From: Winogradskyella sp.
GTDB taxonomy: Bacteria; Bacteroidota; Bacteroidia; Flavobacteriales; Flavobacteriaceae
Direction of reading: 5' to 3'
Assembly: GCF_028282165.1 (NCBI RefSeq)
Contig: NZ_JANQIM010000012.1
Span: 1 to 64,000, forward strand
Length of the DNA stretch: 64,000 bases
A program made the position numbers and the translations under genes. Below, piece by piece: positions 27,829-36,184 of the stretch. The notes below the pieces were generated by a model that made no database searches, had not been told where the DNA came from, and saw only the letters and a program-made list of their open reading frames with translations. Each line of letters starts with the position of its first letter. Position 1 is the first letter of the stretch.

Positions 27829-27870
27829 ATTCCTTTCTGTTTGTTACTTTTGTGTAAACCGCAAGTTTAC

Positions 27871-28563
27871 ATGTTAGATGATGTCTTAACAGCTATTCCA
27901 TTCGGAATTATTTTAGCCTTTACGATTGGTCCAGTCTTCTTTGTGTTATTGGAAACCAGTGCTACCAAAGGCTTTACTAGTGCTTTGGTTTTCGACTTAG
28001 GCGTTATTCTTGCTGATATCGTCTTTATTCTTCTCATTTTTATGAGTACTGACACGTTGTTGGATAAAATAAAGGATGATCCAAAACTATTAGTATTTGG
28101 CGGTGTTTTACTTGTGATCTATGGTCTGATTTCATTTATTAAAATCTCTAAATCGTTTCGATCTATTGTAAGGGAACATCACAGAATTGAACTACCAAAA
28201 AAGGACTACGGAAGACTGTTTGCAAAAGGCTTTTTACTTAATTTTATAAATATTGGCGTGCTATTGGGTTGGCTGGGTTTTATTGTCATAGGCACGTCAA
28301 TTACTACATCTAAGAATGGCGTAACGGTTTTTATAATCTCAATGTTAGCCGCTTACTTTGTGTGCGATTTGTTTAAGATAGCAGCAGCTAAACGTTTAAA
28401 AAATAAACTAACGCCCAGACGTATTTTTAAAACCAAGAAGATTGTCGCTTTAGTAATTTTAGGCTTCGGAATCCTTCTATTGTCTCAAGGATTGTTCCCG
28501 GAATTGTACGAAAAAGGCAAAGAACAGATTGACAAGGTGAATCCAATAAAAGATACGCATTAA
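27871..28563 (+). CDS. LysE family translocator
   Basis: IPFGIILAFTIGPVFFVLLETSATKGF; start likely ATG 27871. Confidence 0.8.
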   Translation: MLDDVLTAIPFGIILAFTIGPVFFVLLETSATKGFTSALVFDLGVILADIVFILLIFMSTDTLLDKIKDDPKLLVFGGVLLVIYGLISFIKISKSFRSIVREHHRIELPKKDYGRLFAKGFLLNFINIGVLLGWLGFIVIGTSITTSKNGVTVFIISMLAAYFVCDLFKIAAAKRLKNKLTPRRIFKTKKIVALVILGFGILLLSQGLFPELYEKGKEQIDKVNPIKDTH

Positions 28564-28601
28564 AAGTAAATGCCTTTAAGCCTAAGTTAAAGGCTTTCCT
28601 A

Positions 28602-28806
28602 GAGGTTTCGAATGGATTAGAATCGCAATGTATTAATCTAAAACTTTTCTAAAATTAATTAGAATCAAAAAACCTTTGAAAAGACAGAGGTAGTATTCAC
28701 TTTAGAGGTGTCGAGCGTATTCGAACCGCTTTGATTTAATCTAAATTTTCTTAAAATTTTAAAATAAAAAAAGCCTTTGAATATTTCTCAAAGACTTTAT
28801 GATTTC
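28602..28806. repeat. Two tandem ~102-bp units, each with a copy of the tRNA-Cys 3' half and terminator-like tail
   Basis: gaggttTCGAATGGATTAGAATCGC at 28602 and gaggtgtcgagcgtattcgaaccgct at 28705, compared with gaggtgtcgagcggattcgaaccgct of the intact tRNA at 28807; flanking sequence of the two units also aligns. Confidence 0.8.
28765..28803 (-). terminator. Terminator hairpin directly downstream of tRNA-Cys
   Basis: Minus strand AAAGTCTTTGAGAAATATTCAAAGGCTTTTTTT. Confidence 0.65.
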
Positions 28807-28807
28807 G

Positions 28808-28878
28808 AGGTGTCGAGCGGATTCGAACCGCTGTAGATGGTGTTGCAGACCACTGCCTAGCCACTCGGCCACGACACC
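28808..28878 (-). tRNA. tRNA-Cys (GCA)
   Basis: Minus strand GGTGTCGTGGCCGAGTGGCTAGGCAGTGGTCTGCAACACCATCTACAGCGGTTCGAATCCGCTCGACACCT; anticodon loop CTGCAAC, discriminator T, complementary acceptor GGTGTCG/CGACACC. Confidence 0.95.
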
Positions 28879-28928: not shown

Positions 28929-29291
28929 TTAGTTTTTTCGTTTTTCTGAAAGCACAATGGTTACCATTTCCACATTACCACCAATAGGAGGATTAATTTT
29001 ACTCACAGAAACAAAAACCTCATTAACCAATTGATCTTCACTAAAAATTCTATCGATAATACGTTGCGCTACGGTTTCCAATAGTTTCGAAGGTATAGCC
29101 ATTTCTTCTTTCACAACATGATTTAAGAACACATAATCGACAGTATCGTTTAACGCATCACTTTTTGAAGATCTTGATAAATCAGCCTCAACAGTAACAT
29201 CTACACGATAATCACTGCCAATAATGGTTTCTTCTTTTAAACAACCATGATGGGCATAAACCCTAATATTTTCAACTTTAATAATTCCCAT
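28929..29291 (-). CDS. folB: Dihydroneopterin aldolase
   Basis: IKVENIRVYAHHGCLKEETIIGSDYRVDV..., DTVDYVFL, INPPIGGNVEMVTI. Confidence 0.9.
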   Translation of the reverse strand: MGIIKVENIRVYAHHGCLKEETIIGSDYRVDVTVEADLSRSSKSDALNDTVDYVFLNHVVKEEMAIPSKLLETVAQRIIDRIFSEDQLVNEVFVSVSKINPPIGGNVEMVTIVLSEKRKN

Positions 29292-29439: not shown

Positions 29440-31476
29440 ATGTCAGAGTACACCCCTCTCAATTTTATAGAGCAAATTATAGAAGAAGATTTGGCCAATG
29501 GACTACCAAAGGAAAAGCTACGTTTTCGTTTCCCTCCAGAGCCTAATGGTTACTTGCACATTGGGCACACTAAAGCCATTGGGATAAGCTTTGGATTAGG
29601 TGAAAAATACAACGCTCCGGTAAACTTAAGATTTGATGATACCAATCCAGCCAAGGAAGAACAAGAGTACGTCGATGCTATAAAACGAGACATTTCGTGG
29701 CTAGGTTATAAATGGGCCAATGAGTTGTATTCTTCAGATTATTTTGATGAATTGTACAATTGGGCTGTGAGATTGATCAAAGATGGAAAGGCTTATGTGG
29801 ATAGTCAATCGTCTGAAGCCATGGCAGAGCAAAAAGGGACACCAACACAACCAGGAACCAATAGCCCATTTAGAAATAGAAGTATTGAAGAGAATCTGGA
29901 TTTGTTCCAACGTATGAAAGCTGGTGAGTTTCCTGCCGGAACCCATGTCTTACGCGCCAAGATAGATATGGAAGATCCAAATATGTTGATGCGCGACCCT
30001 ATTATGTATAGAATCCTTTATGCACATCATCATAGAACAGGAGACCAATGGTGCATTTATCCAATGTACGATTGGACACACGGCGAAAGCGACTATATTG
30101 AACAGATTTCGCATTCACTATGCTCATTGGAATTTAAGCCACACAGAAAACTCTATAATTGGTTTAGGGACCATGTGTATGAATACAATAAAGACCGACT
30201 TCCATTACCACCAAAACAGCGCGAATTTGCACGCCTTAATTTAAGTTATACCATAATGAGTAAGCGCAAATTATTGAGATTGGTTGAAGACGGAGTTGTC
30301 AGTGGCTGGGATGATCCACGTATGCCAACCATTTCAGGATTGCGACGTCGCGGTTACACACCGAACTCTATTCGTCAGTTTATTGAAAAAGTAGGTGTGG
30401 CAAAGCGCGAAAATGTGATAGATGTGTCCTTGTTGGAGTTTTGCATTCGCGAAGATTTAAATAAAACCGCCAATCGTGTTATGGCCGTTTTGGATCCTGT
30501 AAAAGTGGTTATTACCAATTATCCTGAAGACCAAGAAGAATGGCTTGAAGCCGAAAACAATCAAGAAGATGCCTCAGCTGGCTTTAGAAAAGTACCATTT
30601 TCTAGAGAGATTTATATCGAAAAAGAAGACTTTAAGGAAGAAGCGGACAACAAGTTTTTTAGACTTAAACTAGGTGGTGAAGTGCGATTAAAGAATGCTT
30701 ACATTATTAAAGCCAATAGAGTGGTTAAGAATGAAAACGATGGGGTTACGGAAATTCACTGTACATACGATACAGATACGTCTAAGAAAGTAAAGGGCAC
30801 ACTACATTGGGTTTCTATAAAACATGCGATTGCTACCGAAGTAAGAGAATACGATCGCTTGTTTATGCATGAAGCGCCAGATAGTGATAAGGATAAAGAT
30901 TTTATAGAGTTCCTAAATCCAAATTCCCTAACAGTAAAAACAGGTTACTTAGAACCAAGTCTAGCTGAAGTTAAAGTGGGTGAGCGGTTTCAATTTCAAC
31001 GCTTAGGCTATTTTGTGGTTGACGAAGATTCGACGTCTGCAAAATTGGTGTTTAATAAAACCGTTGGATTGCGCGATAGTTGGGCGAAACAGACCCGTGC
31101 TGAGCAAAGTCGAAGTAAGCCAAAACAGAATGTCACTTCGAGCGTAGTCGAGAAGTCTCATAATAAACCACAACAGCAAAGAAAAGCCATTAGTATTATT
31201 CAACAATTAGGTAAAAAGTACACCAATTTGCCAGAGGAAAAACAAGCCAAAGCAAAAGCTGAGATACAACAACTGGCTCAAGAGGTGTCTTATGAAGAAT
31301 TAGAACCTTTGTTTGGAACTGCTGTCAAAAAAGCAGGAACACGAATAGCGGTAATGATTTCATTAAAAGAACTGCTTAAAAATGGGTTGCAACGCAATGA
31401 AGCTATTGATGCGTTTATAGCAAAAGCTTTAGAAGATAAGAACGAATTGTTAGTTGCCGAAGCGCAATCTATTTAA
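29440..31476 (+). CDS. glnS: Glutaminyl-tRNA synthetase with C-terminal YqeY/GatB-like extension
   Basis: RFPPEPNGYLHIGHTKAI, LRFDDTNPAKE, TIMSKRKL motifs; C-terminal helical tail. Confidence 0.95.
   Translation: MSEYTPLNFIEQIIEEDLANGLPKEKLRFRFPPEPNGYLHIGHTKAIGISFGLGEKYNAPVNLRFDDTNPAKEEQEYVDAIKRDISWLGYKWANELYSSDYFDELYNWAVRLIKDGKAYVDSQSSEAMAEQKGTPTQPGTNSPFRNRSIEENLDLFQRMKAGEFPAGTHVLRAKIDMEDPNMLMRDPIMYRILYAHHHRTGDQWCIYPMYDWTHGESDYIEQISHSLCSLEFKPHRKLYNWFRDHVYEYNKDRLPLPPKQREFARLNLSYTIMSKRKLLRLVEDGVVSGWDDPRMPTISGLRRRGYTPNSIRQFIEKVGVAKRENVIDVSLLEFCIREDLNKTANRVMAVLDPVKVVITNYPEDQEEWLEAENNQEDASAGFRKVPFSREIYIEKEDFKEEADNKFFRLKLGGEVRLKNAYIIKANRVVKNENDGVTEIHCTYDTDTSKKVKGTLHWVSIKHAIATEVREYDRLFMHEAPDSDKDKDFIEFLNPNSLTVKTGYLEPSLAEVKVGERFQFQRLGYFVVDEDSTSAKLVFNKTVGLRDSWAKQTRAEQSRSKPKQNVTSSVVEKSHNKPQQQRKAISIIQQLGKKYTNLPEEKQAKAKAEIQQLAQEVSYEELEPLFGTAVKKAGTRIAVMISLKELLKNGLQRNEAIDAFIAKALEDKNELLVAEAQSI
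31132..31160 (+). repeat. Dispersed repeat (GTCACTTCGAGCGTAGTCGAGAAGTCTCA) in frame inside glnS
   Basis: Same consensus as intergenic copies at 18370 and 29314; encodes VTSSVVEKSH. Adjacent ctgagcaaagtcgaag (about 31100-31115) resembles the 36160 repeat. Confidence 0.7.
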
Positions 31477-36159: not shown

Positions 36160-36184
36160 GTCAGGCTGAGCGTAGTCGAAGCCT
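36160..36184. repeat. Dispersed short palindromic repeat GTCAGGCTGAGCGTAGTCGAAGCCT
   Basis: AGGCT...AGCCT arms; related motif occurs in glnS. Confidence 0.6.

Follow-up and report, generated by a model that had tools for sequence, protein, structure and literature searches.

The tRNA-Cys locus and its downstream repeats

The window, by which we mean the whole 64,000-nucleotide stretch of DNA from Winogradskyella sp. that was analyzed, carries on its minus strand an intact tRNA-Cys gene, the sole cysteine-tRNA gene in the genome of this marine organism. The gene lies between folB and a convergent gene for a LysE-type translocator, and is followed by two partial copies of its own 3' end. Listed in the direction of tRNA transcription, the features of the locus are:

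28929..29291, minus strand: folB (dihydroneopterin aldolase), the upstream neighbor (gene annotation)
28807..28878, minus strand: intact tRNA-Cys (GCA) (ARAGORN and Rfam)
28770..28798, minus strand: intrinsic terminator of tRNA-Cys, apparently in working order, AAAGTCTTTGAGAAATATTCAAAGGCTTT with a T run (terminator prediction)
28736..28759, minus strand: conserved 24-nt motif AAATTTTAAGAAAATTTAGATTAA, exact (pattern search)
28705..28730, minus strand: copy 1 of the tRNA-Cys 3' end, 25/26 identical (repeat search and alignment)
28666..28693, minus strand: decayed terminator of unit 1 (aligned, but unrecognized by terminator prediction)
28633..28656, minus strand: second copy of the motif, decayed (alignment and profile search)
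28602..28627, minus strand: copy 2 of the tRNA-Cys 3' end, 20/26 identical (alignment)
28572..28594, minus strand: distal terminator, between the array and the end of the convergent lysE (terminator prediction)
27841..28563, plus strand: lysE-type translocator gene, the convergent neighbor (gene annotation)

The repeat search placed the three copies in register at positions 28598, 28701, and 28803, with spacings of 103 and 102 nt, in agreement with the two downstream tail copies described in the first-pass annotation. When the last 26 nt of the tRNA were compared with copy 1 (25/26 identical) and copy 2 (20/26), each match was better than all of 1000 dinucleotide shuffles; the oldest tRNA-like copy, copy 2, is thus significant by itself. 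The annotation had also held that the intervening sequence aligns, and this is true of the first two units of 102/103 nt, which can be aligned over their full length (0/1000 shuffles as good) and whose spacers have 55 identical columns (0/1000 shuffles equal). It does not extend to the spacer beyond copy 2, which gave no alignment with unit 1 (880/1000 shuffles as good), apart from having a terminator of its own. Terminator-like hairpins were recognized at just two places on the minus strand of the locus, 28798-28770 and 28594-28572, the middle terminator (about 28693-28666) having decayed.

Distribution of the units in Winogradskyella

All 69 Winogradskyella congeners carry tRNA-Cys, and a profile built from the motif and the T-arm copy detected units in 25 of them, with no match farther than 700 nt from tRNA-Cys in any of the 69. 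A unit, about 94-105 bp long, combines a terminator with the conserved 24-nt motif and a tRNA 3'-end copy; arrays contain up to five units, as judged by sequence (G057). Two related types were distinguished: type-A units begin in the T arm and carry the motif before the tRNA-like part, at a near-fixed distance of 6-7 nt, while type-B units begin in the anticodon arm and often have a small palindrome in the T loop.

Exact matches to the motif over 84,980 prokaryote species were found at 11 loci, all 11 of them 3' of tRNA-Cys and confined to Winogradskyella and Arcticiflavibacter; among the named genomes, a single match belongs to the latter genus and the rest to the former. A pattern search of 26 genomes likewise gave 14 hits, every one at tRNA-Cys. 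Since the motif occurs at tRNA-Cys only, a dispersed mobile unit is ruled out. Outside the genus, about 150 genomes from other genera of the family yielded one full-length unit match (G121). In species that have no units, the terminator runs directly to lysE and the motif is missing; the motif is therefore not simply a duplicated piece of the original flank, a point that weighs against the explanation by recombination given below. We favor the view that the array is old in the genus and that its copy number rises and falls by recombination. In one congener (G061), two near-identical tRNA-Cys loci (L107 and L108) are present on different contigs, reflecting either a duplication or an effect of assembly or contamination.

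Growth, decay, and rearrangement of the array

Several arrays record how they were formed. The array of G006 comprises four units, each about 101 bp long; neighbors among the first three are identical at 92-93 of 101 positions, and the tRNA-like parts of these three share T-stem changes not found in the tRNA. In G057, four units in a row are about 89-98% identical and have a common derived 3' part, and a decayed fifth comes after them. In G012, a 215-bp dimer has been duplicated (205/216 identical). These shared derived mutations and the duplicated dimer indicate that the array amplifies itself, producing copies of copies and not fresh displacements of the tRNA end. The nearest copy is nevertheless near-perfect in G011, G012, G071, and the window genome (G000), which indicates that new copies are also made from the tRNA tail itself.

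The array shows an age gradient. Among 17 neighboring pairs of copies, the distal one is more decayed in 10, the two are equal in 6, and the reverse holds in 1, so that the proximal copy is the less decayed in 10 of the 11 informative pairs. The earlier suggestion that the tRNA 3' end underwent a succession of events, the oldest lying farthest out, is thus borne out in the window as well as in its congeners.

Whole units also come and go. The window genome differs from its close relatives G072 and G079 by the clean insertion or deletion of whole units, the empty-site alignments being exact. In these alignments, copy 2, the oldest, falls at the working tRNA 3' end of both relatives, and the distal terminator of the window at their working terminator. 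Similarly, G011 and G059 have the distal array in common and differ by whole proximal units.

We conclude that this is a real, ancient, and dynamic array of tRNA tails, of the kind seen at E. coli tyrT. It is probably a genus-wide tandem array whose copy number was changed by unequal homologous recombination or replication slippage, and the three copies in the window most likely represent the local version of this old array. An exchange could take place within the 25-nt identity of the T arm and acceptor, between the tRNA gene and a partial copy, and would always restore an intact tRNA. If a unit were gained, it would come with a fresh tRNA-like part; if units were lost, an older and deeper terminator would come to adjoin the gene. 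The displaced copies and their terminators would be dispensable and so would decay, which would account for the rise of age with distance from the gene. The recombination step, and whether a single pair of species differs by gain or by loss, are what we infer from these patterns. The first-pass annotation had offered serial duplication leaving spare terminators, which comes near to this explanation. It does not account for the unrelated terminators that neighboring units often carry (G071, G052, G003, and G055); plain duplication does not give these, and they weaken our own explanation as well, as they imply either that intermediate units were lost or that terminators came in from other strains.

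Conservation of the motif and possible function

Across 13 species, pairwise identity was 94% for the motif (a figure inflated by the choice of species with a recognizable motif), 84% for the T-arm copy, and 48% for the 7-nt spacer between them, while the fourfold sites of folB in the same species were 51% identical. Neutral sequence at such divergence would hardly leave any species with a recognizable motif. Conservation so far above that of neutral sites suggests a function and implies that drift and recombination are not the whole story; moreover, because the motif is absent from the tRNA, its persistence cannot be due to conversion from the tRNA. The motif could thus be a binding site, a recombination site, or part of an RNA.

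It is conceivable, if less than probable, that the proximal unit has a function, as a cis element or as an RNA, with the motif and the tRNA-like TTCGAA dyad together binding a protein or arising by processing of tRNA read-through, and that the array is kept for this reason. A role of this type has reportedly been proposed for the RtT RNA of E. coli tyrT. Such a function would be compatible with unequal recombination, which concerns how the array formed, and the contrast in conservation described above argues for it. Against it, the units are missing from 44 of the 69 congeners in the profile search and are thus dispensable, many copies have a disrupted T-stem pairing, which speaks against a folded T arm as the thing that is kept, and the species compared were chosen for a recognizable motif. 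Homology to RtT itself is ruled out, as its covariance model gave no match at these loci (the window at the gathering score; L004, L008, L018, and L023 up to E=5). A bolder version, which we regard as rather unlikely, is that the motif, at its fixed distance from the tRNA-derived TTCGAA dyad, keeps the stack at tRNA-Cys in place by serving as a dedicated recombination site or as a processed RNA. It would then be a self-rebuilding array of tRNA-end cassettes, neither an integron nor an integrated element, in a genus where several tRNA genes stack their own tail and terminator.

Integration, import, and chance

A second alternative, also raised in the first-pass annotation, is repeated site-specific integration at an attB in the tRNA, each element having brought a new tail and terminator before a later deletion left a short scar; the motif would then be the element-side part of the attachment site. 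Several features fit: the copies start in the anticodon arm or the T arm, which are the classic crossover places of integrases, the distance between the motif and the tRNA-like part is nearly constant at 6-7 nt, adjacent units differ in terminator with the older ones outward, and the motif is foreign to empty loci. The surroundings of the gene speak against it. The order folB - tRNA-Cys - lysE is conserved at 69 of 70 loci, and the distance from tRNA-Cys to lysE does not exceed about 3.4 kb: at 58 of the 70, lysE lay in flanks reaching up to about 2.5 kb, at another 11 it was within about 3.4 kb, and the remaining locus, in G019, is near a contig end. The lysE gene is thus close by wherever it could be looked for. 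The genes found between tRNA-Cys and lysE are of GldL-like, RDD, glyoxalase, methyltransferase, and unnamed types, with no integrase among them, and no Phage_integrase match was present within 20 kb downstream of tRNA-Cys in 12 genomes. No distant tail copy was detected at 11 loci searched over about 20 kb each, and viral contigs, examined for a phage attP, contained neither the tRNA-Cys tail nor the motif. Element-sized DNA between tRNA-Cys and a tail copy was not found, all profile matches falling within 700 nt. Independent deletions would not leave the same unit of about 100 bp each time, nor do they agree with the derived mutations common to the copies. The relatives thus show the same tandem units and no element, the outcome that the first-pass annotation had named as favoring plain duplication. 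Given that no integrase or distant att copy was found at the loci searched, nor a phage attP among viral contigs, together with the conserved synteny and the self-amplification of the array, unequal recombination is favored, and we consider repeated integration unlikely, although the very first unit may be an integration scar.

A further alternative is that cassettes of terminator and tail were imported from other Winogradskyella by transformation, recombining in the tRNA and in the motif and T arm. Close relatives do differ in their proximal terminator, and G005, G018, and G021, which belong to different clades, have similar ones; the species tree is built from three short proteins, and its support is modest in places. 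An ancestral multi-terminator array with lineage-specific deletions explains these observations as well (G043, G059, and G011; G003, G052, and G047), and both the spacer adjoining the motif, which follows close relatives, and the flank upstream of the tRNA, which matches the nearest relatives (G005 and G014), argue against import. We therefore judge it improbable. Chance similarity or an assembly artifact is scarcely credible, as 0/1000 shuffles were as good and similar arrays occur in independently sequenced congeners.

Comparison with other tRNA genes and known systems

Tail copies are not limited to tRNA-Cys. In the window genome and G011 together, 10 of 63 tRNA genes are followed within 600 nt by a repeat of their own final 17 nt with no more than one mismatch, against an expectation of about 0.03 from mismatched pairs of tRNA and downstream sequence, for which the chance rate of such a copy was 0.054%. 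Besides Cys, which is among them in both genomes, the genes concerned are those for Trp, Gly (two), Ala, Met (two), Leu, and Thr, and in several, such as Leu(tag) and Met, a repeated terminator is attached to the copy. We found nothing on point about bacterial tRNA-tail arrays in the open-access literature.

The closest precedent is the set of repeats at E. coli tyrT, which the array resembles more than it does the leftovers of inserted mobile elements. An RNA released from the tRNA transcript and an encoded small protein are further marks of this class. We re-found the tyrT repeats, in which 19 nt recur at +175, +472, +650, and +828, with four RtT matches. The tyrT/tyrV repeats (RtT RNA, Rfam RF00391; tpr) are likewise tandem, near-constant units located directly 3' of a tRNA gene, and, as at tRNA-Cys, a tRNA 3'-end copy closes each unit. 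They differ in having 178-bp units, at another tRNA and in another phylum, and RtT homology is lacking at tRNA-Cys. In Winogradskyella, by contrast, each unit has an intrinsic terminator and the AT-rich motif of 24 nt, and the units deteriorate with distance from the gene and differ from one species to another.

Fragments of tRNA 3' ends downstream of tRNA genes are routinely interpreted as scars of integrated islands. Attachment-site duplications by integrases, as in the tRNA-targeted genomic islands of the Islander type, leave a displaced tRNA 3' fragment downstream of the restored tRNA gene (PMC4383910), and such a fragment is also what is seen at tRNA-Cys. The tRNA-Cys array is unlike this type in that it has neither island nor integrase, and consists of repeat units of about 100 bp that are copies of copies. 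At tRNA-Cys the same signature appears without a visible element; it recurs at several tRNA genes and is closely paralleled at E. coli tyrT. The presence of such a fragment is therefore insufficient by itself for calling an island. Whether tRNA-tail arrays have a function can be tested directly through the conserved motif.

Palindromes of the REP type were also encountered. In the window, REP-like cores CTGAGCRNAGYCGAAG occur at 31100-31115 and 36166-36181, and they are dispersed genome-wide; in the genus, such palindromes occupy terminator hairpin loops as well as the T loop in tail copies of other tRNAs and in some tRNA-Cys units. As they are dispersed, lie in hairpin loops generally, and are missing from the units of the window, they are ruled out as the cause of the array. 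The window genome gave no match to a Y1 transposase (Y1_Tnp).

Near-perfect tail copies 50-150 nt downstream of a tRNA gene were noted at L066, L070, L073, L077, L078, and L085 of the window genome and at L087 of G011. Downstream of tRNA-Met, a long inverted-repeat structure follows the terminator in both genomes (L078 and L097). Finally, a Phage_integrase match about 560 nt downstream of a tRNA-Met gene of the window genome (G000:C11:34699-35806) marks a possible true tRNA-integrated element.
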